64,000 nucleotides of DNA from Caenimonas sp. SL110. GTDB lineage: Bacteria > Pseudomonadota > Gammaproteobacteria > Burkholderiales > Burkholderiaceae_C. The notes below the pieces were generated by a model. The model was not told the origin of the DNA. It did not search any database and saw nothing but the letters and a program-made list of their open reading frames with translations. Both the position numbers and the translations under genes were made by a program. Below are positions 4,875 through 44,600 of the stretch, one piece after another; position 1 is the first letter of the stretch, and every line of letters starts with the position of its first letter. The DNA is taken from positions 62,001 to 126,000 of the forward strand of contig NZ_JANU01000039.1 of the NCBI RefSeq assembly GCF_001044395.1, in the 5' to 3' direction.

Positions 4875-6377
4875 TTACCGTGCCGGCCGGATCAGCAGGT
4901 AGGTTGCCAGCTCGCCGCGGCGAAGCAGAACCGGGATCGCCTTGGTCTTGTCGGCCTTGGCGACTACGGCGTCAAACTCTTTCACGCTGCCTACTTCGGT
5001 GTTGCCGATAGCGACGATCACATCGCCTTCGCGGATGCCGGCGCGCGACGCGCCTTCTGCCACAGCCTCGACCTTCACACCGCCCTTGATCTTGAGTTCC
5101 TTGCGCTGTGCGTCCGTGAGGTCGCTGACCGTGAGACCCACCGACTGCGCGGCCGGCGACGACTTCGGCTTTTCTTCCTTGGCTGCCTGGGCTGTGCGCG
5201 CTGGCTTCTCGGGCTCGACTTCTGCAATCACCACAGCCAGGTCCTTGAATCCACCACGGCGGAACACGGTCACGCTGCTGCGCGTGCCCGGCTTGACGCT
5301 GCCCACCAGGCGCGGCAGGTCGGTTGCACGATCGATCACCTTGCCGTCGAACTTCGTGATGATGTCGCCGGCTTCGACGCCCGCCTTGTCAGCGGGCGAG
5401 CCGCTTTCGACGCTGCGCACCAGCGCGCCCTGCGCCCGTCCCAGACCGATGGACTCGGCGACGTCCTTGGTCACCTGGTCGATCTGCACGCCGATGCGTC
5501 CGCGCTGGACGCGTCCCGACACACGCAGTTGCTCACTCACGCGCATTGCTTCATCGATGGGGATCGCAAACGAGATGCCCATGAAGCCGCCCGAACGTGA
5601 ATAGATCTGGCTGTTGATGCCGACCACCTCACCTCGCATGTTGATGAGCGGTCCGCCAGAGTTTCCGGGGTTGATCGCCACGTCAGTCTGGATGAACGGC
5701 AGGTAGTCGCCGGTGTCGCGGCCCTTGGCGCTCACGATGCCGGCAGTCACGCTGTTCTCAAGGCCGAACGGCGAGCCGATGGCCATTACCCATTCACCGA
5801 CCTTGAGGCGATTGTTGTCGCCGATCCGCACCGCCGGAAAACCCGCGCCTTCGATCTTCACGACAGCAACATCGGTGCGCTTGTCGGCGCCGATGATGCG
5901 CGCCTTGAATTCACGCTTGTCAGGCAGCGTGACGACGACTTCGTCGGCGCCTTCGACCACATGGGCGTTGGTCATCACGAAACCGTCGCTGCTCAGGATG
6001 AAACCAGAGCCCACGCCGCGCGGTTGCGTCTGCTCTTCATCCTGCTGCGGACGATTCGGGCGCGGCGCCTGTCGCGGCTGGCCGGGCGTTCCCGGCATGG
6101 GCTGGCCGAAGAAGCGCCGGAAAAACTCCTGCATCTCTTCGTCCATGTTGCCGGGAAGGCCGGAAGCGGAGCTGCTGCGAACGCGCTCCACGGTACGAAT
6201 GTTGACCACCGATGGCCCGACCTGTTCGACCAGGTCGGTGAAATCGGGAAGGCCACGAACTGCCTGTGCGGAGACCGGCCGGGCTGGGACCAGCGCGATG
6301 GTCGTGCCCACTGCGAGCGCGGCCACGACCGCATACGCGCGAATTTTTTTCAAGTCGATCGTCTTCATGCTGGACAT
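4875..6377 (-). CDS. DegP/MucD-type periplasmic serine protease
   Basis: HtrA-family protease and chaperone that degrades misfolded envelope proteins. The 500-residue protein has a signal peptide (about residues 1-38, ending PVSAQA), a trypsin-like domain with His139 (TNAHVVEG), Asp169 (RTDVAVVK) and Ser240 (GNSGGPL), and two PDZ domains (about 290-380 and 405-495). A Gln/Pro-rich loop near residues 92-120 precedes the catalytic core. It lies downstream of rpoE-rseA-rseB, as mucD follows algU-mucA-mucB in Pseudomonas, so sigma-E control is expected. AAGGA lies just before the chosen ATG; a second ATG three codons on is possible. It could be named mucD, degP or degQ. Confidence 0.93.
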   Translation of the reverse strand: MSSMKTIDLKKIRAYAVVAALAVGTTIALVPARPVSAQAVRGLPDFTDLVEQVGPSVVNIRTVERVRSSSASGLPGNMDEEMQEFFRRFFGQPMPGTPGQPRQAPRPNRPQQDEEQTQPRGVGSGFILSSDGFVMTNAHVVEGADEVVVTLPDKREFKARIIGADKRTDVAVVKIEGAGFPAVRIGDNNRLKVGEWVMAIGSPFGLENSVTAGIVSAKGRDTGDYLPFIQTDVAINPGNSGGPLINMRGEVVGINSQIYSRSGGFMGISFAIPIDEAMRVSEQLRVSGRVQRGRIGVQIDQVTKDVAESIGLGRAQGALVRSVESGSPADKAGVEAGDIITKFDGKVIDRATDLPRLVGSVKPGTRSSVTVFRRGGFKDLAVVIAEVEPEKPARTAQAAKEEKPKSSPAAQSVGLTVSDLTDAQRKELKIKGGVKVEAVAEGASRAGIREGDVIVAIGNTEVGSVKEFDAVVAKADKTKAIPVLLRRGELATYLLIRPAR

Positions 6378-6492
6378 ACTTTCCTTGGGAGATGGCGGGC
6401 TCGGGCAGCCCTCTCTGCTGAGAATGAAAACCTGCGAAATGGTTCAGCGGCTGATGTGCGAAACCTGGGTCGCATGGGGCCTAGATGGGGGC

Positions 6493-7542
6493 TTACTTGC
6501 GCCGCTCAAGGCTCTGCGCAAAGGCATTGAGCGTCTGCGAGGGCACTTCACCCACGGCAGTGAGCCACCAGTCCTGGATGCGGCGAGTCAGCGTCTGGGT
6601 CGCGCCGGAGGCGAAGATGCCTTCCTGCGCGTGACGCTTGGCGTCGTATTGCTCGACGAAAAGCGAGACAGCTGCAAGACCATCCGAAAAAATCCAGTGA
6701 ATAGCGCCATCGCTGCCCGCACCGCCAGCGCCAACGGGACGCTTGTAGCAATTGATGGGCTTGAAGCCGGCAATCGCCGACTTCAGGTGCCATCCTTCAG
6801 CGGCTGCAGTGGTCTTGAGCGCTTCAGCCTTTTCAATGCGCCAGCCTTCAGTGGCCGACATCATCTGGTTCAACTTGTCGATGCGCACCGGCGCATCGAG
6901 CTGAAGCTCCGAGAAAGCGGCCTGCTCCAGCACTGTGCCGTCGGCATCGATGGTTTGAAGTTTCACCACCAGGCCCGACTTGCGTTCGCTCCAGATGCGG
7001 TAGCCGTAGCGCAGGTTGTCTTTGGGCGCCAACTGCACCACGTCGGCAGCGAATCCGGCCACACGGTCGCCACCCAGACGGCGTGCCGAGTAGAAATCAG
7101 GGATCGAACTGTCGCTGGACTTGATCAGGTTGGGAAACAGCCCGAGCGACTCGCGCTTTTCGGTACGCGCGACGCGCAGCTCCGGCAGGAAGGTCACGAC
7201 TTCGTTGTTGCGACGGAAGGTCGAACGGGGTGCGCCGGTCAGCGACTCGACGCGCTCGACCTGCTGGTCGCCCTCGCACGCATGCCAGATGCGGGCACTG
7301 GACATGCTGCCGTTGTTGGAGAGCACCACAAACGTCCCGATGTAGCTTCGAAGCTTCGAGGCCTCGTGCATGCGAAGCAGCCACTCGCTGACACTGCGCT
7401 CGGGATAATGTGCGGCCGACGAAGCCTGCTGTCCGTGTGCAGGCGCCTGTGCCAGGACCAGGGCCTCTTCGGCCTGGGCCATTGCTGCGCCGCCTGTCAG
7501 CAGCGCGGCCATGATGAATGAGGTCCGTGGGAAGATTTCCAT
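6493..7542 (-). CDS. rseB: Sigma-E regulatory protein RseB/MucB
   Basis: Periplasmic partner of the anti-sigma factor RseA; it protects RseA from proteolysis and senses lipoprotein or LPS signals. The likely product is 349 residues, starting MEIFPRTSF with a signal peptide cleaved after AMAQA (about residue 24), followed by the MucB/RseB N-terminal lipoprotein-like domain (LRSYIGTFV region) and the C-terminal domain. The frame stays open upstream into rseA; the start at 7542 gives a proper signal peptide, while a start at 7578 would add 12 codons. It lies between rseA and the protease gene, as in the mucABCD layout. Confidence 0.9.
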   Translation of the reverse strand: MEIFPRTSFIMAALLTGGAAMAQAEEALVLAQAPAHGQQASSAAHYPERSVSEWLLRMHEASKLRSYIGTFVVLSNNGSMSSARIWHACEGDQQVERVESLTGAPRSTFRRNNEVVTFLPELRVARTEKRESLGLFPNLIKSSDSSIPDFYSARRLGGDRVAGFAADVVQLAPKDNLRYGYRIWSERKSGLVVKLQTIDADGTVLEQAAFSELQLDAPVRIDKLNQMMSATEGWRIEKAEALKTTAAAEGWHLKSAIAGFKPINCYKRPVGAGGAGSDGAIHWIFSDGLAAVSLFVEQYDAKRHAQEGIFASGATQTLTRRIQDWWLTAVGEVPSQTLNAFAQSLERRK

Positions 7543-18055: not shown

Positions 18056-18451
18056 TCAGAACTCGATCGGTTTTAGGTTGTAGTCAGTATGCCAGTGCAC
18101 CACACCCCCGTGTTCCGAGAGGATGATGCGAACAAGCCCTCCGCGGCAGGGCCCACTGGCACATTCGCCCGTGTCGGGCTGGTACACCGCGCCGTGCGTG
18201 CTGCAAAGCAGCCATCGGCCAGAGTCGTCGAAGAACCGGTTGGGTTGCCAGTCCATTTCCATCGCCACGTGCGTGCAGCGGTTGAGGTATGCATGAACCT
18301 GCCCCTGCCAGCGCACAGCAAACGCCCGGCAGGTCTGGCCGCCATAGGAAACATCAAACGGCACGGCCATGCCGCCATCTGCCAGATCGGTCGAACTGCA
18401 AAGGGGAATGACTTCTTCCATGGGGCTATCGCAGGCGCTGGGGATGGTCAC
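18056..18451 (-). CDS. Rieske [2Fe-2S] ferredoxin-like protein
   Basis: 131-residue soluble protein with a complete Rieske cluster site: CTH near residue 59 and CSTH about 20 residues later, each giving one Cys and one His ligand. No signal peptide or membrane anchor is visible, so it is a cytoplasmic Rieske-type ferredoxin; its partner is unknown. The GTG start overlaps the stop of the phosphatase gene (GTGA); an ATG ten codons downstream is an alternative. The HAD-Rieske-sppA order is common in Burkholderiales but no joint function is established. Confidence 0.88.
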   Translation of the reverse strand: MTIPSACDSPMEEVIPLCSSTDLADGGMAVPFDVSYGGQTCRAFAVRWQGQVHAYLNRCTHVAMEMDWQPNRFFDDSGRWLLCSTHGAVYQPDTGECASGPCRGGLVRIILSEHGGVVHWHTDYNLKPIEF

Positions 18452-19116
18452 GCATTTTCAAGTAGCCAGGCCCGCAGTTCGCTGACGCGGTGCGCGACGA
18501 ACAACGGAGAAAGCGCATCGAATGCAGCGGGTTCGTGCGCGCCATAACTCACGCCGACAGACGCGCAACCGGCGTTCACGGCCATCTGCAAATCGTGCGT
18601 CGTGTCGCCGATCATGAGTGTGCGCTGCGGTGTGCAGCCGAACTCCTGCATCAGCTCCCTGAGCATCAGGGGGTGGGGCTTGCCGGCGGTTTCATCAGCG
18701 GTGCGCGAGCCGTGGAACCGGCCCTTGAGTTGCACGGTGCGAAGCGCGTCGTCCAGGCCGTGGCGCGACTTGCCCGTGGCAACCGCCAGCAGGTGCTGCC
18801 GGCCCCGCAGTTCGTCCAGCATTTCCAGCACGCCGTCGAACAGGACCAGGTCGTCCTGGTGCTGCGCGTAATAGTGCCGATAGCGCTGGCCCAGTTCAGG
18901 GTGTTTTTCCCTGGGCACGTCAGGCGCTGCGTGAGCCAGCGCCTGCGATAGCGCCATGCCGATGACATAGGAGGCGGCCTCCTCGGTCGGCTCGCGTCCG
19001 CCCACGTCGACCACGGCGCGCTGTATGCAGCGCACGATGATCTTCGTGGAGTCGAAAAGGGTGCCATCCCAATCGAATGCAATCAGGTCGAAACGGCGGG
19101 GGCGCGGCTGGGTCAT
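18448..19116 (-). CDS. HAD-superfamily phosphatase, phosphoglycolate phosphatase-like
   Basis: 222-residue HAD hydrolase of the Gph-like subgroup. Motif I is FDWDGTLFDS (nucleophile Asp15, acid/base Asp17), motif II is the Thr of VATGKSR, and motif III-IV is GKPHP...MIGDTTHDLQMA. The substrate cannot be told from sequence; phosphoglycolate or a related phosphate ester is likely. The ATG at 19116 has no Shine-Dalgarno sequence, but GATAAT lies exactly six bases upstream, so the mRNA may be leaderless. It is divergent from the giant TPR-glycosyltransferase gene. Confidence 0.9.
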   Translation of the reverse strand: MTQPRPRRFDLIAFDWDGTLFDSTKIIVRCIQRAVVDVGGREPTEEAASYVIGMALSQALAHAAPDVPREKHPELGQRYRHYYAQHQDDLVLFDGVLEMLDELRGRQHLLAVATGKSRHGLDDALRTVQLKGRFHGSRTADETAGKPHPLMLRELMQEFGCTPQRTLMIGDTTHDLQMAVNAGCASVGVSYGAHEPAAFDALSPLFVAHRVSELRAWLLENA

Positions 19117-19128: not shown

Positions 19129-19163
19129 AAGGGCGCGCTGTGGCAGCGCTTGCAGGTATAAAG

Positions 19164-22100
19164 ATGCAGCCATTGACACCGCCCTTGAAAAAAGCCCGAC
19201 CGACCGCCCCGACCCCACAAGCAATTGCAACGGACCAGGCAATGAACCTGCTTGCGGGCGCGACTTCAGCACTGCGGGGCGGCAGGTTCGAGCAGGCCCG
19301 AGCAGCGTGCCTGAACGTGCTGGCCGATGACCCGGCAAACCCGCACGCCTGGCATTTGCTGGGCGGCGTGTTACTCCAGTTGGCCGACTTTGCAGGTGCG
19401 CAAGAGGCATTCCTGAAGGCGCTGGCGCTGCGCGACGACCCGCTCTTCCACCTGAACCTGAGCCGGGCGCTCCGGGCGCAAAAAAGACTGGATGCCTGCG
19501 AGAAGGCCCTGCGGCGCGCAATCGAGCTTGCGCCAGCCGCCGTTGAGATGCGGCACGAACTCGCTGACGTCCTGTACCGTGCCGGCCGATTCGAAGCGGC
19601 AGAAGGCGAACTGCGCAAGGCCATCAGGCTCAGCCCGCCATTTGCGCAAGCCTGGTTCCTGCTCGGCCACGTCCTGGGGCGTCGCGGGCGAGTGCGCGAG
19701 TCTGAACAATGCCATCGCAAAGCCCTCGAACTGGGACTCGCCACGGCGCAGTCCTGCCAGGGGCTGGCCGTCGCCTTGCATCGCCTGCGCCGCTGGGACG
19801 AAGCCGAAGCCATGTTCCGCAAGGCGCTGGCCCTCCAGTCCGACTTCGCAGCCGCCCTGAACGGCATCGGGACCTCCCAACGCGAGCGCGGCCAATTCCA
19901 CGAGGCGGAAAGCGCATTCAGGCGTGCGGTCGAACTGGAGCCGGACAATTTCTGGGCCCTGAACAACCTGGGCATCGTGCTCGCGGACATGGGCCGCCGC
20001 GAAGAATCTGAAGCGGTCGTGCGGCGCGCCCTGGCGCTGCGACCGGAAAGTGGCGACTTGCAGCACGACGCCGATGTGCTGCTCAACATGGGAATGCTGC
20101 TGCTGTCGATGGGCCGGATGCAAGAAGGCTGGCCCTACTACGAAGCCCGGCACAAGCCGGACCTGTTCGATGGATCTATCCGTTCACCCGGCTATGCGTT
20201 TCCCCAATGGGCGGGCGAGCCTCTTGAAGGCAAATCGCTCATCGTCTGGAGTGAGCAAGGCCATGGCGACACCCTGCAGGTCGTGCGCTACGTGCCCATG
20301 CTCAAGCAGTTGGGCGTATCGAAGCTGACGTGGGTTTGTGGCGAACCACTGCGCGAGCTGATGGCAGCCGTGCCCGGCATCGACCAGGTGACGACAAGAG
20401 ACACCGCTGCGCAGCCGCACGACTACTGGTGCTACGCGATGAGCCTGCCCATGCGCATGGGGACCACGCTCGAAACGATTCCCGCCCAGCTTCCTTACCT
20501 GCGCGCAGACCCGAACAAGGTGAGGCAGTGGCGCGACAGGATTCCCACAACGGGCATCAAGGTCGGGCTGGCCTGGAAGGGTTCGGCCAGCCATATCAAC
20601 GACGCCCGCCGCTCGCTTGCGGGCCTGGCTGATCTTGCGCCCCTCTGGTCGATACCGGGCATCACCTTTGTGAGCCTGCAAAAAGGCGCGGGCGAAGACC
20701 AGGCGGTGAACCCTCCGCCGGGGCAGACCATCGTGGCGCTCGGTCACCTGTTGCAGGATTTCAGCGACACTGCTGCCGTCATTGACCAACTCGACCTGGT
20801 CATCGGTGTCGACACATCGGTGATTCACCTTGCAGGTGCGATGGGCAAGCCGACCTGGGTGATGCTGCCTTCGCTCGGCGTGGATTGGCGATGGCTCATT
20901 GGCCGGGACGATTCGCCGTGGTATCCGGGCACGATGCGTCTGTGGCGAAATGACGATCAACGCATTTGGGCGCCACTCGTGGAGCGCGTCCGAGCGGCGC
21001 TGGAACAATTTGCGAATGACCGTGCGGCAACGTCTATGAAACCCGTCCCTGCAATTGCTTCCCCCGTCGCAGAAGAATTCAAGGCCGCATTTGCTGCCCA
21101 CCAGGCGGGGCGCGTGGACGAAGCGAAGGCCGGCTACGAAAGAGTCCTGCAAGCCGATCCCTCCCACGCCGATGCCTGGCACCTGCTGGGCGGCGTGATG
21201 CTGCGCGAAAAACGCTACGCCGAGGCCGAGCAGCACATGCGCAAGGCACTGTCGCTTCGCGAAGACCCGGTGTTCCTGAACAACCTGGGCCAGATGCTGC
21301 ACTCGCTGCGACGCGTGGCGGATGCCAGGGCTGTCTTTCACCGCACCCTGGAGATCGACCCACACAATGCCGACGCGCATCACCTGCTGGCGGTGCTGCT
21401 GCTGCAGACCGGCAAGGTCGATGAAGCCCTGGCCGCACTCAGGGCGTCGATCGACTCGCAGGCCGACAACCCATCGACCCATCGACTCCTGGGCCACCTG
21501 CTGGAGCATTGCGGTCGCTTTGACGAATCGGAAGCCGCGCTACGCAAGGCCGAAAGCCTGGACCCCGATTCACTCGATACGCAGCTGTATCTTGGCAACA
21601 CCTTGAACAACGCGGGCAAGCTGCCTGAGGCCGAGGCAGCCTACCGCCGCGCGATCGCGTTGCGGGACGATTCGGCGCCGGCCCACCACGGCCTTGGACT
21701 CGTCCTGCAGAAGCTGGGCCGCATGGACGAGGCCTGCGCTTCGTTTTCCCGCGCGATCGAAATCAGGCCCGACTTCGGCGCGGCAATCAATGGCCTTGGA
21801 ATTGTCTTTCTGCACCGGGGCAAATTCCAGGAAGCCGAAGCCGCTTTCCGGCGCGCCCTTGAACTCTCGCCCAACGACTTCTGGGCCCACAACAATCTTG
21901 GCGTCCTGCTGCAACACACCGAACGCCGGGAGGAAGCGCAGGAGCGGTTTGCAAAGGCGATGAGCATCAAGCCGGGCCCGGACCAGCGCCTCAACGTCGC
22001 CATGCTGCACCTGGGCGACGGCCGGTTTTCCGAGGGCTGGGAGCTGTATGAAGCGCGGTTTGAAGCGCGGGCCGACTTCAAGACCGGCAAGCCCGACCTG

Positions 22101-24998
22101 CCCTTTCCGATGTGGCAAGGCGAGCCCCTGAACGGCAAGAAGCTGCTGGTCTGGCCGGAGCAGGGTTTCGGCGACATCATCCAGATGGCCCGATATGCAC
22201 CCATGCTGCGTTCACTGGGTCTGGCGCGCCTCACCTGGGCCTGCGGCAAGTCACTGCGGCCGTTGCTGCTCCAGTTACCCGAGATCGATGAAGTCGTGGA
22301 CCCGAAAGCAGCCCAGGCAAGCCATGACTACTGGTGTTACGCGATGAGCTTGCCGCTTCGCCTGGGCACCGAACTCGAAACCATTCCTGCGAAACTGCCC
22401 TACCTGCAGGCGCCACCAGACCGGATCGCTCCCTGGAAATCCCGCTTGCCCAAAAAAGGAGTGCGGGTCGGCCTGGTCTGGAAGGGCTCCAAGGTCCACA
22501 AGAACGACCAGAACCGTTCGCTGCCGGGCCTGGCTGCACTGGCATCGCTGTGGACGGTGCCGGGCGTCTCTTTCGTCAGCCTGCAAAAAGGCGCTGGCGA
22601 AGATGAAGCACTGAGCCCGCCCGAGGGCCAGCCGATCACTGCGCTGGGCAAACTGCTGCGGGACTTCGGGGACACGGCTGCGGTGATTGCCGGACTCGAC
22701 CTGGTGATCGGCGTGGACACGTCCGTGATCCACCTGTCGGGCGCAATGGGCAAGCCGACCTGGGTGATGCTGCCCTCGTTCGGTGCCGACTGGCGCTGGC
22801 TGGTCGATCGTGAAGACTCCCCCTGGTATCCGGGCGTGATGCGCGTGTTTCGCGACAAACGCGCGCGCGACTGGGCGCCACTGATAGCGCGGGTGCGAAG
22901 CGAGCTGGAGCAATTCGTGCGCAGCAAAAAGCGTCCGCCCCCGTTCGTCCTCACGCCTGTGGGCGCCGCATCCGCGATTGCCAGCATCGACTCCGAAGAG
23001 GTGACGCCGGAAGTGCCCCTGTTCAAGCTGGTCATCACGTCGGCCATAACGACGCCCGCACCCGTTCCAGCACCAACCACCGCCGAAGAAGTCGTGCGCC
23101 TGGGCAATGAAGGCAGCCGGCTTCGCAAACTCGGCAAGACCGTCGAGGCAGAAGCTGCGTATCGCCGCGCACTCGACCTCGATCCGCAGCACGTCGAGAT
23201 CGCTTTTTCGATGGCCAACCTGCTTCGCGCGCAGGGCCGTCACATCGAGGCCGAGGCGTTCTACCGACAGGTCATCCGGCTCGCACCCCAGCTTGCGAAG
23301 GCACACAACAATCTCGCCGTCTTGCTGCGTGCGATGGGACGCAGCGACGAAGCACAGGCGTCCTATCGCAAGGCCATCGAAACAGCGCCGGACTACGCCG
23401 AAGGCCATGCCAACCTGGGTAACCTGCTCGTCGCGTTGGGGCGCGAGGACGAAGCCGAGCAAAGCTATGAGCGAGCGATACAGGTAAGACCCGGCTTCGC
23501 CGCAGCTCACAACGGCCTGGGTGCCCTCTACATCCGGCAAAAACTCTGGCCGCAGGCCGAAGCGAGCATCCGGCGGGCGCTGGAGCTGCAGCCGGACCAT
23601 GCCGATGCGTGGAACAACCTGGGCACGGTGCTGCAGGAATCCAGGCGCCTGGCCGAATCGGAGATGGCGTACTCGCGCGCGCTTGAACTCAAACCCGATT
23701 TTGCGGATGCAAGCAACAACCTGGGCACCGTCATGCAACGCGCAGGCCGCATCGACGACGCTGGCCAGGCCTACAAGCGCGCGATGGAATTGAAACCGAA
23801 CGATCCGTCGTACGCCAACAATTTCGCCACCGTGCTCATGGACTGGAAAAACTGGGCCGAGGCTGAAGCGGCCTACACCCGCGCGATCGCGCTCAAGCCC
23901 GACTATGCCGATGCACACAGCAACCTGGGTGCGCTCTTGCTGCAGGTCAATCGCGTGGACGAAGCGCAAGCGTCGTTCAGGCGCGCGCTGCAGGTGCAAC
24001 CCGACCTTCCCGAAGCGCGCCTGAACCTGGGTGTGCTGTTGCTGGGTCAGGGTCGATTCGAAGAAGGTTGGGAACACTACGAGTACCGCCATTCGAATCT
24101 GCTCAAGAACGCTGTCATGGCACAAGAGAAACTGCCGGGCCGCGAATGGAAAGGTGAACCACTCGAAGGCAAGACGTTCCTGATCTGGCCTGAACAGGGA
24201 TTTGGCGATTCGATCCAGTTCGCGCGATATGCGAAGCAGTTGAAGGCACTCGGGGTCAAGCACCTCACGCTCGTTTGCCATCAACCGCTCAAGGCCCTGC
24301 TCGAAACGCTGGAAGATGTCGACACGGTGATTTCGGACCTGCGCGAAGTGGGCGAGTACGACTACGGCGCGTATGTCCTGAGCCTGCCGATGCGATTCGC
24401 AACCAACGGCGCCAACATTCCGGCCGCGCTGCCCTATCTGCAGGCGGACCCCGATCGGGTTGCGAAATGGAAGCCACGCCTGCCCGTTGCCGCAAGGCGG
24501 ATCGGCCTCGTCTGGAAGGGCGCGAAGGGGCACCGCAACGACAAGGCCCGCTCGTTGCCATCGCTGGCCAGCCTGGCGCCGCTGTGGGCCGCTGCTGACA
24601 CAGCGTTCGTGAGCCTGCAAAAAGGACAGGGCGAAGATGAAGCGCTCAATCCACCAGCAGGGCAACCCATCACGGCACTGGGCAGCGAAGTACAGGACTT
24701 CGCCGATACGGCGGCAATCATCTCGCAGCTCGACCTCGTCATCTGCGTGGACACGTCCATCGCCCACCTTGCAGGCGCGATGGGCAAGCACACCTGGGTG
24801 CTGCTCCCTTCCATAGGCACAGACTGGCGCTGGCTGACCGAGCGCACCGACTCGCCCTGGTATCCCGGCGTCATGCGGCTGGTGCGCCAGTCCACGCCGG
24901 GCGACTGGACGACCGCCATACAGGAGGTCGCCGATGCGCTGAAGTCAGTGGTCGCCAGCAAACCCCGCAAGACCGGGCGGAAGCGGCGAGGAGAGTGA
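19164..24998 (+). CDS. Giant protein of three tandem TPR + GT9-like glycosyltransferase modules
   Basis: A single 1,944-residue reading frame. Each of three modules has about eight or nine tetratricopeptide repeats (nt about 19,230-20,120; 21,060-22,030; 23,085-24,060) followed by a domain of about 300 residues (20,125-21,030; 22,030-22,925; 24,060-24,950). The domain resembles family 9 (heptosyltransferase-like) glycosyltransferases: EQGxGD near its N-terminus and VDTSxxHLxGAMGKxTWVxLPS near its C-terminus, present in all three copies. Modules 1 and 2 are closest to each other. No signal peptide or membrane segment is seen, so it is probably cytoplasmic. ATG at 19164 (AGG eight bases upstream) is preferred to GTG at 19140. 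It lies between the HAD phosphatase and rluC. Protein glycosylation or a scaffold role is possible; the target is unknown. Confidence 0.85.
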   Translation: MQPLTPPLKKARPTAPTPQAIATDQAMNLLAGATSALRGGRFEQARAACLNVLADDPANPHAWHLLGGVLLQLADFAGAQEAFLKALALRDDPLFHLNLSRALRAQKRLDACEKALRRAIELAPAAVEMRHELADVLYRAGRFEAAEGELRKAIRLSPPFAQAWFLLGHVLGRRGRVRESEQCHRKALELGLATAQSCQGLAVALHRLRRWDEAEAMFRKALALQSDFAAALNGIGTSQRERGQFHEAESAFRRAVELEPDNFWALNNLGIVLADMGRREESEAVVRRALALRPESGDLQHDADVLLNMGMLLLSMGRMQEGWPYYEARHKPDLFDGSIRSPGYAFPQWAGEPLEGKSLIVWSEQGHGDTLQVVRYVPMLKQLGVSKLTWVCGEPLRELMAAVPGIDQVTTRDTAAQPHDYWCYAMSLPMRMGTTLETIPAQLPYLRADPNKVRQWRDRIPTTGIKVGLAWKGSASHINDARRSLAGLADLAPLWSIPGITFVSLQKGAGEDQAVNPPPGQTIVALGHLLQDFSDTAAVIDQLDLVIGVDTSVIHLAGAMGKPTWVMLPSLGVDWRWLIGRDDSPWYPGTMRLWRNDDQRIWAPLVERVRAALEQFANDRAATSMKPVPAIASPVAEEFKAAFAAHQAGRVDEAKAGYERVLQADPSHADAWHLLGGVMLREKRYAEAEQHMRKALSLREDPVFLNNLGQMLHSLRRVADARAVFHRTLEIDPHNADAHHLLAVLLLQTGKVDEALAALRASIDSQADNPSTHRLLGHLLEHCGRFDESEAALRKAESLDPDSLDTQLYLGNTLNNAGKLPEAEAAYRRAIALRDDSAPAHHGLGLVLQKLGRMDEACASFSRAIEIRPDFGAAINGLGIVFLHRGKFQEAEAAFRRALELSPNDFWAHNNLGVLLQHTERREEAQERFAKAMSIKPGPDQRLNVAMLHLGDGRFSEGWELYEARFEARADFKTGKPDLPFPMWQGEPLNGKKLLVWPEQGFGDIIQMARYAPMLRSLGLARLTWACGKSLRPLLLQLPEIDEVVDPKAAQASHDYWCYAMSLPLRLGTELETIPAKLPYLQAPPDRIAPWKSRLPKKGVRVGLVWKGSKVHKNDQNRSLPGLAALASLWTVPGVSFVSLQKGAGEDEALSPPEGQPITALGKLLRDFGDTAAVIAGLDLVIGVDTSVIHLSGAMGKPTWVMLPSFGADWRWLVDREDSPWYPGVMRVFRDKRARDWAPLIARVRSELEQFVRSKKRPPPFVLTPVGAASAIASIDSEEVTPEVPLFKLVITSAITTPAPVPAPTTAEEVVRLGNEGSRLRKLGKTVEAEAAYRRALDLDPQHVEIAFSMANLLRAQGRHIEAEAFYRQVIRLAPQLAKAHNNLAVLLRAMGRSDEAQASYRKAIETAPDYAEGHANLGNLLVALGREDEAEQSYERAIQVRPGFAAAHNGLGALYIRQKLWPQAEASIRRALELQPDHADAWNNLGTVLQESRRLAESEMAYSRALELKPDFADASNNLGTVMQRAGRIDDAGQAYKRAMELKPNDPSYANNFATVLMDWKNWAEAEAAYTRAIALKPDYADAHSNLGALLLQVNRVDEAQASFRRALQVQPDLPEARLNLGVLLLGQGRFEEGWEHYEYRHSNLLKNAVMAQEKLPGREWKGEPLEGKTFLIWPEQGFGDSIQFARYAKQLKALGVKHLTLVCHQPLKALLETLEDVDTVISDLREVGEYDYGAYVLSLPMRFATNGANIPAALPYLQADPDRVAKWKPRLPVAARRIGLVWKGAKGHRNDKARSLPSLASLAPLWAAADTAFVSLQKGQGEDEALNPPAGQPITALGSEVQDFADTAAIISQLDLVICVDTSIAHLAGAMGKHTWVLLPSIGTDWRWLTERTDSPWYPGVMRLVRQSTPGDWTTAIQEVADALKSVVASKPRKTGRKRRGE

Positions 24999-25961
24999 AA
25001 CCGGCTCACCCGTCGCAGGATGGGTGAACGTCAGCTTCCAGGCGTGCAGAAACATGCGCTTCAATCCCGCCTTCTGCAGCGCCTTGTTCAATTCGAAGTC
25101 GCCGTACTTGTCGTCGCCCAGTATCGGGAAGCCTTGTGAAGACAGGTGAACGCGGATCTGGTGGGTGCGGCCGGTCTTGATGGTGACTTCAAGCAGGGAG
25201 GCTGCGCAAGAATCACCCTCACCCCGACCCTCTCCCGCTCGCGGGAGAGGGAGACGAATCCGCTGGGCGACTTTGACCAGTGTGATCGAACGCATCCCGT
25301 CCGGGTCGCCCTGCGCCACCACTTTCACCCGGCGCTCTCCATCGGCCTGCAGGTATTTGTGCAGCGGTACGTCAATCACCTTCTTGTTGGCGGGCCAGTC
25401 GCCTGCCACCAGCGCGAGATAGGTCTTGCCGGTCTCGCGTTCCCGGAACTGGTCTTGCAGGTTGGTGAGCGCTGACCGCTTCTTCGCGATCAGCAGGATG
25501 CCCGAGGTTTCGCGGTCCAGCCGGTGCACCAGCTCCAGGAAACGGGCAGCCGGACGCGCCCGGCGCAATTGCTCGATCACGCCAAAACTCACACCGCTGC
25601 CGCCATGCACCGCCACACCCGCAGGCTTGTCGATGGCCATCAGGTGCTCATCTTCGAACAGCACCGGAAACTCACGGCCTGGCACGACGGCCTCGGCCTT
25701 TTCAGCGACCCTCTCGGAAATCCGGACCGGTGGCAGCCGAACCTTGTCCCCTGCCGCGACGCGTGTATCGGCCTGGGCGCGACCCTTGTTCACGCGCACC
25801 TCGCCACTGCGGATGATCCGGTAGACGTGGGTTTTGGGCACACCCTTCAAGTGCCGGATGAGGAAGTTATCCAGCCGCTGGCCGGCGGAATCTTCGTCCA
25901 CATCCAGCCATTTCACCTGTGCACTTGCGGGGACAGGATCGCCCCCTATAATGTGTTTCAC
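24945..25961 (-). CDS. rluC: 23S rRNA pseudouridine synthase RluC-type
   Basis: Converts uridines in 23S rRNA to pseudouridine. The likely 338-residue product has an S4 RNA-binding domain (about residues 26-80) and the catalytic domain with Asp149 in HRLDRETSGIL and the late motif KTGRTHQIRVHL. About 20 residues rich in Pro, Arg and Gly (about 233-254) interrupt the catalytic domain and are encoded by a palindromic repeat (25214-25253). The start is uncertain: GTG at 25961 is chosen, a GTG at 26024 would lengthen it, and no ribosome binding site is clear. The rne promoter lies inside its first codons on the other strand. Its 3' end overlaps the TPR-glycosyltransferase gene by 54 bp, convergently. 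Confidence 0.9.
   Translation of the reverse strand: MKHIIGGDPVPASAQVKWLDVDEDSAGQRLDNFLIRHLKGVPKTHVYRIIRSGEVRVNKGRAQADTRVAAGDKVRLPPVRISERVAEKAEAVVPGREFPVLFEDEHLMAIDKPAGVAVHGGSGVSFGVIEQLRRARPAARFLELVHRLDRETSGILLIAKKRSALTNLQDQFRERETGKTYLALVAGDWPANKKVIDVPLHKYLQADGERRVKVVAQGDPDGMRSITLVKVAQRIRLPLPRAGEGRGEGDSCAASLLEVTIKTGRTHQIRVHLSSQGFPILGDDKYGDFELNKALQKAGLKRMFLHAWKLTFTHPATGEPVSLSSPLPPGLAGFAGDH
25214..25253. repeat. Short palindromic repeat inserted in frame in rluC
   Basis: CCTCACCCC-ACCCTCTCCC followed by its mirror. Arms of 11 bp at 25228-25238 and 25241-25251 are perfectly complementary with a two-base spacer. A second copy is at 49065-49102 inside pbpC. In both genes it adds a Pro/Arg/Gly-rich peptide without breaking the frame. 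Confidence 0.8.
25925..25952 (+). promoter_or_regulatory. Probable rne promoter
   Basis: A perfect TATAAT (25947-25952) with TTGCGG sixteen bases upstream (25925-25930), in a GC-rich setting. Transcription would start near 25959, giving rne a leader of about 500 nt. The promoter overlaps the first codons of rluC on the opposite strand. Confidence 0.65.
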
Positions 25962-26459
25962 TAGCGTAACGCTGTAAGTGGTTGATTTGCCTTGGAGTTT
26001 AGTCCACGCACTCACCACGGGCACGCTGGAAGGTCGATGCCGCCATCGCGACTGAAGAAGTCGATGGCCAAGCCGGCACTTTGAAACATTTCGGAATATG
26101 AGTACGCCAAACCAAGATTTGGCGGACGGAACGAAGCGAGAACTCCTGTGTTGATGGCGATCCTCCTTGCATGCTGGCGGTGGCTTATGGGCCCTGCTGA
26201 TGTGCCAGTGTCGCCGCTGGTTCGCCTAGCGTGGACCCCACACATCGCGCCACTAGCAGTGGCCACCCGGGCGCGCCCACGCGGCGCACCGCCTCTCGCC
26301 TTACTTCACGCCCCACTCCTCGCCCTGACACCACGCCAGCCCGGCTAACCGCCCGGCTGCTGCGTCGCGCCATCGCGATTCCTTCTCGTTTCAAAGCCGC
26401 CTGCAGGCATCGTTGGCCCGTTTTCGGGCCGTGATGTTTGAAAAGAAAAAGGTGACGCT
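25959..26459 (+). promoter_or_regulatory. Long structured 5' leader of rne
   Basis: The 498-bp gap between rluC and rne has no convincing gene. It begins with a small hairpin AGCGT-A-ACGCT (25963-25973) right at the predicted transcript start, has a 7-bp inverted repeat CGCCAAA/TTTGGCG (26105-26124), and ends with GGCCCG-TTTT-CGGGCC (26415-26430). That last hairpin is enclosed by TTTCAAA (26389-26395) and TTTGAAA (26437-26443), just before the ribosome binding site. RNase E in E. coli controls its own mRNA through a long structured leader, so an equivalent role is plausible here; that is inference. Confidence 0.5.
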
Positions 26460-40026: not shown

Positions 40027-41418
40027 ATGAACCAATTCGACAAAAAATCCGAGGCCTGGTCGGCCCTTTTCTCCGAGCCGATGAGCGACCTCGTCAAGCG
40101 CTATACCGCGAGCGTCTTTTTCGACAAGCGCCTGTGGAAAGCCGACATCGAGGGCTCGCTCGCCCATGCGTCCATGCTCGCGCGCCAGGGCATCATCGGC
40201 GCACAGGACCTGAACGACATCGAGCGCGGCATGGCCCAGATCACCCAGGAAATCGAGGCCGGCCAGTTCGACTGGAAGCTCGACCTGGAGGACGTGCACC
40301 TCAACATCGAGGCACGCCTGACGCAACTGGTGGGTGACGCGGGCAAGCGCCTGCACACCGGGCGCAGCCGCAACGACCAGGTCGCCACCGATGTGCGACT
40401 GTGGCTGCGCGGCGAGATCGACCTGATCTCTGCGCTGCTGGGCGATGTGCAAAAGGCGCTGGTCGATCTGGCAGAGCGCAATGTCGAAGTCATCATGCCG
40501 GGCTTCACGCACCTGCAGGTCGCGCAGCCGGTGAGCTTCGGTCACCACATGCTGGCCTATGTGGAGATGTTCGAGCGGGACCAGGACCGCATCGCCGATG
40601 TGCGCAAGCGCGTCAATCGCCTGCCGCTGGGCGCTGCGGCGCTGGCCGGCACCAGCTATCCGCTGGACCGGGAGTCGGTCGCCAGGGCGCTTGAAATGGA
40701 CGGTGTGTGCCAGAACTCGCTGGATGCGGTGAGCGACCGGGACTTCGCCATCGAGTTCACCGCTGCTGCGTCCATTGCCATGGTGCATATCAGCCGGCTG
40801 TCTGAGGAGCTGGTGCTGTGGACCAGCCAGAACTTCAGCTTCATCAAGATCGCCGACCGCTTCACCACCGGCTCGTCGATCATGCCGCAGAAGAAAAATC
40901 CCGATGTACCGGAACTCGCGCGCGGCAAGACCGGGCGGGTGGTCGGTCACCTCATGGGCCTCATCACGCTGATGAAGGGCCAGCCGCTGGCCTACAACAA
41001 GGACAACCAGGAAGACAAGGAGCCGCTCTTTGACACGGCTGACACCTTGAAGGACACGCTGCGCATCTTCGCGGAGATGATTGGCGGGATCACCGTGCAG
41101 GCAGAGGCGATGGAAAAGGCAGCGCTGCGCGGCTATGCCACTGCGACGGACCTGGCCGACTACCTGGTCAAGAAGGGCCTGCCGTTTCGCGACGCGCATG
41201 AAATCGTCGCGCATGCGGTGAAGGCAGCGACATCGCACAACTGCGATCTGTCGGAGCTTCCGCTCACGGTGCTGCAGGGCTTTCATCCGAAGATCGACAA
41301 AGACGTTTATGACGTGCTGTCGCTGCGCGGCTCGTTGAATGCACGCGATATCCTGGGAGGGACCGCGCCTGCGCAAGTGCGGGCACAGATCGCGCGGCAT
41401 CGCGCGCGACTCGCTTAG
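40027..41418 (+). CDS. argH: Argininosuccinate lyase
   Basis: Last enzyme of arginine synthesis, splitting argininosuccinate into arginine and fumarate. 463 residues with the fumarase/aspartase superfamily signature [12 protein letters not shown] (about residues 282-293) holding the catalytic Ser loop, and [13 protein letters not shown] earlier. ATG at 40027 begins [12 protein letters not shown]; the longer upstream frame overlaps the kinase gene and is not used. GATAAT at 39961-39966 is a possible -10 box about 60 bp upstream, without a clear -35. Confidence 0.97.
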
Positions 41419-41423
41419 GCAGC

Positions 41424-41575
41424 ACTGCCATTGCGGACCTGATCCGCAATCCATGCATTCAACGGCCGCTGCCGCTTCGCGGTGGATACCGGGTCGAGCC
41501 CGGTATGACATCCAGAGAGGCTGTCATTGCGGACTGAGACCGGAGGGCTCCTGCGAATCCGCCGCAATCCATGTC
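41424..41575. repeat. Long-family palindromic repeats between argH and the alpha-2-macroglobulin gene
   Basis: The 226-bp gap 41419-41644 is mostly repeat. It holds ATTGCGGA-CCTGA-TCCGCAAT (41428-41448), a second palindrome ATACCGGG-TCGAG-CCCGGTAT (41484-41504) with the CGCTTCGCGG linker between, and a degenerate third copy (about 41522-41570). The rest holds only the ribosome binding site of the next gene. Confidence 0.75.
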
Positions 41576-41644
41576 TTCGCGGGCCGTCGCCGCTTCGCTC
41601 CCGCGCACATTTCAGCTACGCTCATCCCTCACTGGAGGGCTAGC

Positions 41645-44600
41645 GTGAGTCGCAAAAAGAACATCCTCTCGGGCGCGGTCCTGGCGCTCGCCCTCGGCTG
41701 CGCCCATGCCGTCACGGTCACCAGTCTCACGCCGCAGGGCGAAGTGAGCAAGGTGCGGCAAGTCGTCGCGAAGTTCGACGAACCCGCCATCACCTTCGGC
41801 GACCCAAAAGCCCCGGTGCCCATCACGCTCAGTTGCAGCGACGCACAAGCCACCAAAGGCACGGCGCGCTGGAACAACGACCGCGAATGGGTGTTCCAGT
41901 TCGAGGACGACCTGCCGCCCGGCGTCACCTGCACGCTACAAACCAAAGCCGGATTCAAGTCCCCGAAAGGCGCTGAACTTCCCAAGGGAAACTGGCGCTT
42001 TTCCACCGGTGGGCCGTTCGTGCAGCAGCTTCGCCCCGGCACCTACCAGCGCATCGACGAAGAGCAGTTCTTTGCGATGCAGCTCAATGGCGACGCCACG
42101 CAGCAGAGCATGAAAGACAACCTCTGGTGCTCGATCGAAGGCTTAGGCGAGCGCGTGCCCGCGAAATTCCTGGAAGGCAAGGAGCGGGCCGACTACCTCA
42201 AGTCGCTGGGCATGGACAAGGCCGCAGAGAAACAGCCGCTGCGTTACTTCGCCTTCGCCTGCAATCGCCGCCTGGCTGCAAACGCGCGGGTGCAGATCGT
42301 GTACGGCAAGGGCGTCGCCACGCCCAGCGGCGTCGCCAACGCCCTCGAGCGCCGATTCGACTACCAGGTGCGCGAACCGTTCGCAGCCAGCTTCAGCTGC
42401 GAGCGGGAAAGCGCCCAGTCGTCCTGCCTGCCGGTCCGACCGATAACGCTGTCGTTCAATGCACCGGTCGCGCGCAAGCTGGCAGAGCAGATCAGGCTGA
42501 AGGGCGCGAAGGATTCACTCAAACCGGCTTTTGAAAACCAGGACAGCGACCCGGAAGCGGTGGTGAACGGCGTCACCTTCAAGCCCATGTTTGCAGAGCG
42601 TGCCGCGTTCACACTCGAACTGCCGCGCGACTTCAAGGATGCATCGGGCCGCGTGCTTCGTAATGCCGACAGCTTTCCGCTCAAGGTCGCCACCGGCGCG
42701 ATGCCACCACTGGCAAAGTTTGCCGCCGCGCCCTTCGGCATCGTCGAGCGTTTCGCCGAACCCGATAGCGGGCCGCTGCTGCCGATCACCGTTCGCAACG
42801 TGGAGACCGCGCTGCGTGCGCAGACCTTCACCCCCGGCAAGATCAGCGACCTGCAGCCCAGGACCGACGCCGACATCATCGCGTGGTTTCGCAAGGTGCA
42901 GCAGTACGACGAGTTCAGGGTCAAGCGCTCGGTCGCTGTGCGCGATATCAAGGGCCCGCTTCCCAAGGTCGTCGACAAGGACGACAGTGAGTGGATCCAG
43001 TCCCGCATGGTCTCGCTGTTGGCGGGGCAGAGCGCGGCGAAAACGATGGACATGCCCAAGGCGGCTGAGGGCGACCCCCGGCCGTTTGAAGTGGTCGGTA
43101 TTCCGCTATCGCCCGGCTTCCACGTCGTCGAGATTGCTTCGCAGCGCCTGGGCACATCCCTGCTCGATGAGCGTCACGGCGCGACTCGCACGATGTACGT
43201 GCGCAGCTCTGCGCTGGTCACCAACCTGGCCGTGCACTTCAAGCTGGGACGCGAGAACGCGATCGCCTGGGTCACCACGCTGGACAAGGGCCAGGTCGTC
43301 ACCAATGCGCGCGTTCGCGTCTCGGACTGCCAGGGCAAGGAACTCGCAACCGCAGTCACCGATGCCCGAGGCATTGCGCAGTTCAAGGACCTGTCGCCCC
43401 AGCCACCGCGTTGCAGCGAAGACGACAACATGCGCGAAGCCTACTTCGTCAGTGCACGGGCCAGCGATGCCAAAGGTGGTGAAGACCTCGCCTTCACATG
43501 GAGCGACTGGCAGCGCGGCATCGAGCCGTGGCGTTTCAACGTTCCCACGAGCCGCGAGTCGCGTCCCGATGAGCGCATGCACACCATCTTCGATCGCACC
43601 CTGCTTCGCGCGGGCGAGACCGTGTCGATGAAGCACCTCGCGCGCACCGAGACACGCACGGGCTTCGGCGTGCCCGCCGCCCTTCCCGCTCAGATGGTGG
43701 TGACGCACGTCGGCAGCGGCCAGCAATTCACGCAGGCGCTCAACTGGCGCAAGACGGCAACGGGCGGCCAGAGCGCAGAAAGCGAATTCAAGATTCCGCC
43801 TGCGGCCAGGCTCGGCATGTACAGCGTGCAACTCACCCATGAGGGCGGTCGCGCCACCGATTCAGGCGAGTTCCGTGTCGAGGAATTCAGGCTGCCGGTG
43901 CTCGAGGGCCGGGTGGTGCCGACCGATCGCAAGTCACTCGTCAACGTCAAGTCCGTGCCCAGCGAGGTGCAGGTCAACTACGTCTCTGGTGGAGGCGCTG
44001 CGAACCTGCCGGTACGGGTCACGGCGCAGGTGCGTCGCAAGGGCCTTGCGTTTCGCGACTATGACGAGTTCAGCTTCCAGCCGCCGCGTCAACGTGCCGA
44101 CGCAGCAAAGAGTGGCGAAGACGACGCCGCCACCGACGCGCGAATCATTGCAGACAAGCTGCCGCTCACGCTCGATCGCAATGGCGCAGGCAAGCTGACG
44201 ATCGCGGAAGTACCGCCATCGAAGCAGCCGCAGGACTTGCTGCTGGAAGCGAGCTACGCCGACCCGAACGGCGAAGTGCAAACCCTGCGTAGTGTGTCCA
44301 CCTTGTGGCCCGCCGCCGTCGTCGCCGGCCTGAAGACCGAAGGCTGGGTGTCGGCCCGGCAGAAGATCGGATTCCAGGCACTGGCCCTCGGTCTCGACGG
44401 CAAGCCCGCCGCGGGTGTCCCGCTCGAAGTTCATGCGACCGCTCGCATCGTCACGACCAGCCGCAAGCGCATGGTCGGCGGCTTCTATACCTACGACAAC
44501 AAGACGGAGACCCGGGACCTGGGCAAGGTGTGCAGCGGCAAGAGCGATTCGCGCGGCCTGCTGCTGTGCGAGACCAGGCTCGCCGAAGCAGGCGAGGTGG

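Follow-up and report, generated by a model that had tools for sequence, protein, structure and literature searches.

A three-module TPR-glycosyltransferase gene between HAD and rluC in Caenimonas sp. SL110, a candidate multi-site protein glycosyltransferase

We analysed a stretch of 64,000 nucleotides from Caenimonas sp. SL110 (contig NZ_JANU01000039.1, positions 62,001 to 126,000; hereafter the window), in which one gene (19164..24998, + strand) encodes three tandem modules, each a tetratricopeptide repeat (TPR) array followed by a GT9-like glycosyltransferase (GT) domain. The gene is delimited by its open reading frame (ORF), Pfam, motifs and structure models. Read from the ATG at 19164 it gives 1944 aa with no internal stop, and 1952 aa from an upstream GTG (ORF 19140-24998, + strand). 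The left border is a divergent HAD-family phosphatase gene (18448..19116, - strand), the start of which is 47 bp away from the array ATG. The right border is the convergent rluC, encoding an RluA-family pseudouridine synthase (24945..26024, - strand, as the longest frame), the true start of which is probably the GTG at about 25961. According to the ORF list, the 3' ends of the array gene and rluC overlap in antisense at 24945..24998. Between 18900 and 19400 a promoter scan found no sigma-70-like match, and two terminator-like sites lie there on the - strand, against 0.4 expected. Tandem Repeats Finder reported no array, Rfam gave nothing at gathering scores, and a tRNA search of the 64-kb window found none.

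All three modules lie on the + strand and follow the same plan. Module 1 consists of a TPR array at 19227..20138 (limits approximate, from Pfam and pattern count) and a GT9-like domain at 20139..21023, which carries EQGHGD at 20253-20270 and VDTSVIHLAGAMGK at 20808-20849. In module 2, a TPR array at 21057..22043, with 10 helix pairs in the predicted structure, precedes a GT9-like domain at 22044..22928, which was modelled alone (EQGFGD at 22158-22175, VDTSVIHLSGAMGK at 22713-22754). Beyond an Ala/Pro-rich linker, placed approximately at 22929..23078 from the translation, module 3 comprises a TPR array at 23079..24083, delimited by Pfam, PDB sequence matches and a pattern count of nine repeats, and a GT9-like domain at 24084..24959 (EQGFGD at 24192-24209, VDTSIAHLAGAMGK at 24747-24788). 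Every module thus carries one EQGxGD (residues 364, 999 and 1677) and one VDTSxxHLxGAMGK (residues 549, 1184 and 1862), and the ORF and the motif positions agree with the sequence-only reading, which had described a single frame of three such modules with both motifs in each.

The TPR part of the protein is readily recognised: Pfam TPR families match the whole protein with E-values down to 2.6e-132, and its best PDB sequence matches, those to the TPR domain of human OGT, fall within the TPR array of module 3. A crude ad hoc pattern picked out 27 TPR-like units, two of them false because they lie inside GT domains, which leaves about 25, close to the 26 or so estimated earlier; the count for module 2 comes from its structure model, where 20 paired helices make 10 TPRs. 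The GT part gives weaker matches. Glyco_transf_9 (PF01075) scores 24.6, 22.9 and 22.5 bits in the three domains, barely passing the Pfam cut-off of 22, and its best-matching stretch is the C-terminal motif region alone; phmmer against the PDB with one GT domain returned just three weak JetA matches. Since TPR proteins took up the entire list when a full module was used in a structure search, GT domain 2 was folded and searched apart. Its model adopts a Rossmann/GT-B fold of GT9 type, closest to heptosyltransferases. With this predicted fold and complete motif sets in all three domains, the earlier call of an enzyme is right at the fold level as modelled. GT domains 1 and 2 are 62% identical, and domain 3 is 51% and 56% identical to those two; each contains two cysteines.

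We located rluC in 59 genomes of the genus and mapped its surroundings for rluC, HAD and GT. Three of them have an array in the interval from rluC to HAD, namely that of the window (G000), G012 and G008. In these carriers it is divergent from HAD and overlaps the rluC 3' end in antisense, so that HAD is parted from its usual neighbour. Among the 56 non-carriers the estimated rluC-HAD gap measures -60 to +100 bp in 53, which bears out that the two genes are near neighbours in relatives, and the exceptions are G020 (143 bp), G066 (375 bp, where the match to rluC is split in two) and G052 (1702 bp). GT domains of array strength (at least 442 bits against A1) were found only in the three carriers among 60 genomes, the next best reaching 291 bits; the sixtieth genome, G075, lies outside the rluC set and has no match of array-module strength. 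Most relatives thus lack the gene at this place, and the idea of an insertion stands. What does not stand is a recent arrival of foreign DNA, since GC (0.641) and GC3 (GC at third codon positions, 0.763) are similar to those of the neighbours. No target-site duplication was recognised among repeats. In G052 the gap is occupied by an unrelated 565-aa gene (L067:2018-3715; no NCBIfam match at 1e-10), and hence it accepts other cargo.

A tree of four flanking genes, rluC and HAD among them, built by a quick method with 59 rows, places the window's genome and G012 as sisters (SH-aLRT, a likelihood-ratio branch support, 100), and G008 elsewhere, with G016 (92). On this tree the insert needs two changes. 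In a GT-domain tree that included 27 domains from named loci, the 13 GT domains at or by the site and the named domains form one large clade (100/96), with 18 other TPR-GT domains of the genus outside. Because the named loci had been selected for matching the site domains best, their closeness is partly by choice, which is not so for the exclusion of the genus's own genes; we read the latter as horizontal acquisition with an origin outside the genus. A single clade for all 13 site modules held in trees without named loci (97/94, 99/94) and was broken once the 27 named domains were added; the approximately unbiased (AU) test did not reject it (p 0.395 with 13 rows, p 0.245 with 12, the extra G012 copy described below being left out).

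Within the site, the nine array modules of the window and G012 group together (91/78) and fall into two classes: class A holds window modules 1-2 and G012 modules 1-4 (100/99), and class B window module 3 and G012 modules 5-6 (100/97; 99/98 in the tree without named loci). The order is A-A-B in the window and A-A-A-A-B-B in G012, the array frame of which holds six modules in 3590 aa from stop to stop. These shared classes indicate that the ancestor of both had at least A-B and that each lineage amplified its modules separately. Of the three modules of G008, two pair apart (100/99) and the third is unplaced in the GT tree. Window modules 1 and 2 are sisters in three trees (94/85, 89/83, 94/86), as expected if they were the most recent duplicates; the duplication is, however, old, their DNA being 71% identical over 300 nt (64% for modules 1 and 3). 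The modules are under purifying selection, since nonsynonymous divergence (dN) is well below synonymous divergence (dS) in six measured GT-domain pairs: dN is 0.29-0.48 and dS 0.97-1.49 in five pairs involving the window, and 0.18 and 0.75 in the sixth, within G012. Across the 13 modules at or by the site the motifs show two substitutions in all. Altogether, the gene is real, functional-looking and unusual, and the six-module array of G012 is its most striking relative.

G012 also carries an extra module at the other end of rluC. There, a 534-aa single-module TPR-GT frame (L044:4671-6275) starts inside a conserved block at the rluC 5' end, apparently using rluC's own GTG and first codons, with the start codon assigned from sequence; its end overlaps a new rluC start in an ATGA, from which rluC restarts (6272-7231). 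This is possibly a case of start-codon capture. In the tree without named rows the extra module falls on the class A side (99/92); with named rows it stands beside a Hydrocarboniphaga domain (96/95), and a tree that groups it with the nine array modules does not fare worse. The conserved block spans 72 bp (window about 25941-26012, - strand) and is identical in the window and G012 at 72 of 72 positions; over 57 loci of the genus its median identity is 85%, with 35 of the 57 at 80% or more and a lowest value of 43%. It has no Rfam match. Towards rne it opens with TATAATGTG and may thus contain the promoter of rne and the beginning of its leader, in overlap with codons of rluC.

The family extends well beyond this site. 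The GT profile matched 44 of the 59 genus genomes and 66 in a sample of 249 genomes of the phylum, a lower bound because only the best nine or fewer candidates per genome were scored. Thirteen loci of the genus with a TPR-GT frame include seven in the recA-recX/sucCD region, two by gatCAB/mreB and one by pilBCD; the names sppA, Rieske, recA, recX, sucCD, argC, gatB, mreB and pilB are those we presume from N-terminal sequences. The recA-recX/sucCD region (L045, L234, L235, L240-L243) repeatedly holds one or more TPR-GT genes and forms a second hot spot, with multi-module frames of 1674 aa in L235 and 1156 aa in L241. The window's genome itself has a single-module paralogue elsewhere (contig C26, L046:9069-11261), with the WK and DSP motif positions altered to AG and DTR, which is possibly diverging.

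Multi-module frames, in sets selected by match strength or frame length and hence no census, occur in eight of the 76 named loci retained, and two Magnetococcales bins account for six of these eight. Among named organisms there are three modules in Magnetococcales and two each in Ca. Gallionella acididurans and Methylovulum; among picked loci, four per frame in G231, three in G258 and two each in G109, G063, G070, G221 and an Azospirillum plasmid, with at least two in a cut locus of G075 and a weak second domain in G083. Like the window gene, these have a tandem layout within one frame, but they lie at different loci and have fewer modules than G012, and those domains placed in the tree (one Gallionella, one Methylovulum, three Magnetococcales) stand apart from the window's. 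Three modules per chain are thus uncommon, as the sequence-only reading had proposed, yet not unique, given six in G012, three in G008 and two to four elsewhere. An all-against-all comparison of frames from 82 TPR-GT loci gave no convincing case of a shared partner gene, the hits being mainly spurious overlapping frames, and in four of the 20 annotated plasmid neighbourhoods listed (459 records matched) the two with gene tables had no partner in common.

A further survey concerned flagellar loci, for which 11 genomes were re-searched, giving 13 loci from 10 of them (G174 was left out), eight of which were inspected. A TPR-GT lies beside flbT-flaF and/or flagellin in L277, L278 and L279 and inside a flagellar operon in L288, with flagellin (in three loci), FlaF, FlbT and FliW confirmed by Pfam; in L281-L284 no flagellar gene was recognised by eye. 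The window-family GT profile matches the TPR-GTs at flagellar loci with E-values of 4.3e-27 to 2.8e-38. Of the EQGxGD residues, these keep E, the first G and D; in their donor motif the D is replaced by S, G or A and the H by N, whereas the window modules retain both. Four flagellar rows form a clade of their own (97/96) within a deep group split off at 100/99, with the window modules outside. Given this difference in the donor motif, the window group probably uses another donor than FlmG, the flagellin glycosyltransferase of Caulobacter. ADP-heptose fits the motif and is a candidate donor.

As to the acceptor, no PF00669 match was found in G000, G008 or G012 (12 of the 59 genus genomes have one), which gives no support to flagellin as the carriers' substrate. 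RTX repeats were counted as matches among the best 106 or fewer candidates scored per genome: there are at least 84 in G000, 103 in G008 and 91 in G012, whereas the other 56 genomes have a median of 25, and the three rank 5, 2 and 4 of 59 (one-sided Mann-Whitney p 0.003). TPR-GT and RTX counts correlate over the 59 genomes (Spearman 0.36; 0.31 with genome size taken out). The idea of RTX proteins as substrate of the whole TPR-GT family does not hold up, as G053, G018 and G006 have TPR-GT matches without RTX matches. For the arrays, giant RTX proteins are the leading acceptor candidate, to be regarded as weak. Contig C27 of the window's genome (L244:7299-16200) contains two long adjacent frames, the first (1583 aa) RTX by Pfam and the second with PF00353 too, followed by a frame of 1165 aa that resembles the query in its TPRs alone. 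In the window itself, 41339-47563 encodes a 2074-aa bacterial alpha-2-macroglobulin (bMG3, MG2, A2M, bMG10) followed by a 767-aa frame from 47560, which we take to be probably an ordinary yfhM-pbpC-like pair.

With this in mind, we propose that the gene encodes a multi-module enzyme of the TPR-GT superfamily, to which the FlmG-type flagellar enzymes also belong, and that in the cytosol it O-glycosylates a long exported protein at many sites; we hold this reading with about as much belief as doubt. A TPR-GT from outside the genus would have settled between rluC and HAD, with its modules then amplified within each lineage. Each TPR superhelix would grip an unfolded or repetitive acceptor and present it to its own GT9-fold active site, where the EQGxGD aspartate would serve as base and VDTxxxH as binding site for the sugar-nucleotide donor; the most likely donor is ADP-heptose or a similar nucleoside diphosphate sugar. 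Three modules on one chain, six in the sister species, would bring many active sites to each acceptor, to be glycosylated at many positions ahead of secretion. Catalytic activity, donor, protein acceptor, multi-site action and direction of transfer are here what we infer. By analogy with FlmG, the TPR domain of which binds the acceptor, and with TibC, with its many sites and repetitive acceptor (PMC4358343), one long acceptor may run along the roughly 25 TPRs and be modified at several points.

Several observations weigh against this proposal. The RTX link is post hoc, having been tested after eight genomes had been seen, and two of the three carriers are sisters; G066 and G062 have at least 105 and 101 RTX matches without an array, the TPR-GT/RTX correlation falls to 0.25 (p 0.06) without the carriers, and G053 combines three TPR-GT matches with a lack of both RTX and flagellin matches. 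The array has no linked acceptor gene, the mapped neighbours being housekeeping genes, and a giant 'calcium-binding' protein encoded next to an Azospirillum TPR-GT gave no Pfam family at E up to 1e-5. The donor motif merely resembles the one in heptosyltransferases, and ADP-heptose synthesis is not diagnostic because it is near-universal, TIGR02199 matching 57 of the 59 genomes (50 over its cut-off). A nonulosonate pathway is also present in the window's genome (NeuB and NeuC genes), and FlmG uses pseudaminic acid; NeuB, found in 50 of the 59, is uninformative as a donor marker.

A possible though doubtful alternative is an assembly line, in which classes A and B do different jobs, on different acceptor regions or as first sugar and extension, so that their order builds a defined modification, of several sugars or in two zones, instead of just multiplying the sites. 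That A precedes B in both the window and G012, each class having been amplified on its own, speaks for it, and donor motifs can diverge, as in FlmG-type relatives; yet A and B agree at those catalytic and donor motif positions that were checked, and the three modules of G008 show no A/B split. More speculatively, the arrays may be expandable, with module number (three to six) tuned in each lineage to the length of giant repetitive exported proteins of RTX type, so that a single polypeptide achieves processive hyperglycosylation, and with a conserved A-then-B division of labour; we think this rather unlikely. Separate amplification in each lineage would also suit a neutral or selfish amplification of a TPR-GT orphan within a gap that captures genes, with module number functionally meaningless, as would the TPR-GT genes in other housekeeping gaps of the genus, the single-module gene at the G012 rluC 5' end and the unrelated gene in the G052 gap. 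This is unlikely, however, with dN/dS well under 1 in all six pairs, nearly invariant motifs and frames open over up to 3590 aa. An inactive TPR scaffold, its degenerate GT domains serving as spacers or sugar-nucleotide sensors, would accord with the barely sufficient Pfam scores and with no activity being known, and is made highly unlikely by the GT9-type motifs in every array module and the confident fold. Finally, a functional orthologue of FlmG that glycosylates flagellin with nonulosonic acid, for which the common superfamily, the TPR-GT layout and the NeuB and NeuC genes might be cited, is scarcely credible: that none of the three carriers has a flagellin match refutes it for the most part, and the separate, well-supported flagellar clade, which lacks the D and H of the donor motif, also speaks against it.

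If the proposed multi-site enzyme is active, it would show how covalent joining can solve the problem for which TibC forms a ring, and the natural series of one, two, three, four and six modules would allow site number to be measured against processivity and would offer parts for bacterial glycoengineering. The arrays suggest, too, that bacteria without a flagellin match glycosylate proteins other than flagellin. In word searches of open-access literature, which does not take in subscription papers or preprints, no paper came up on enzymes that glycosylate proteins and carry more than one complete catalytic module per chain.

Among known systems, the multi-module layout is a new variation on the TPR-GT theme. 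The window protein shares the order of TPRs and C-terminal GT with FlmG, the Caulobacter flagellin O-glycosyltransferase (596 aa, TPR N-terminal and GT-B C-terminal domain), for which PMC7591256 describes cytosolic protein glycosylation, a need for pseudaminic acid and flagellin binding through the TPR domain. FlmG has one module, however, and the arrays of the window and G012 three to six; the four flagellar-locus rows lack VDTxxxH and the window has it, with C. crescentus FlmG outside this comparison. OGT and SPINDLY (GT41) likewise join a TPR superhelix to a GT-B fold and are the best Foldseek matches of a whole module, a search dominated by the TPRs. The lipopolysaccharide heptosyltransferases WaaC and WaaF share the GT9 fold, their GD and VDTxxxH regions being weakly alignable by sequence; they have no TPRs, a lipid acceptor and a single module. 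The bacterial autotransporter heptosyltransferases (BAHT; TibC/AAH) have their partner autotransporter next door, and the array has HAD, rluC and rne as neighbours. TibC multiplies its sites by forming a dodecamer, which, according to PMC4358343, depends on an iron finger with four cysteines and on a hairpin thumb. With two cysteines per GT domain the window protein lacks such a finger, and instead of a dodecamer ring it has covalently joined modules with TPR arrays, which would make it the covalent counterpart of that ring.
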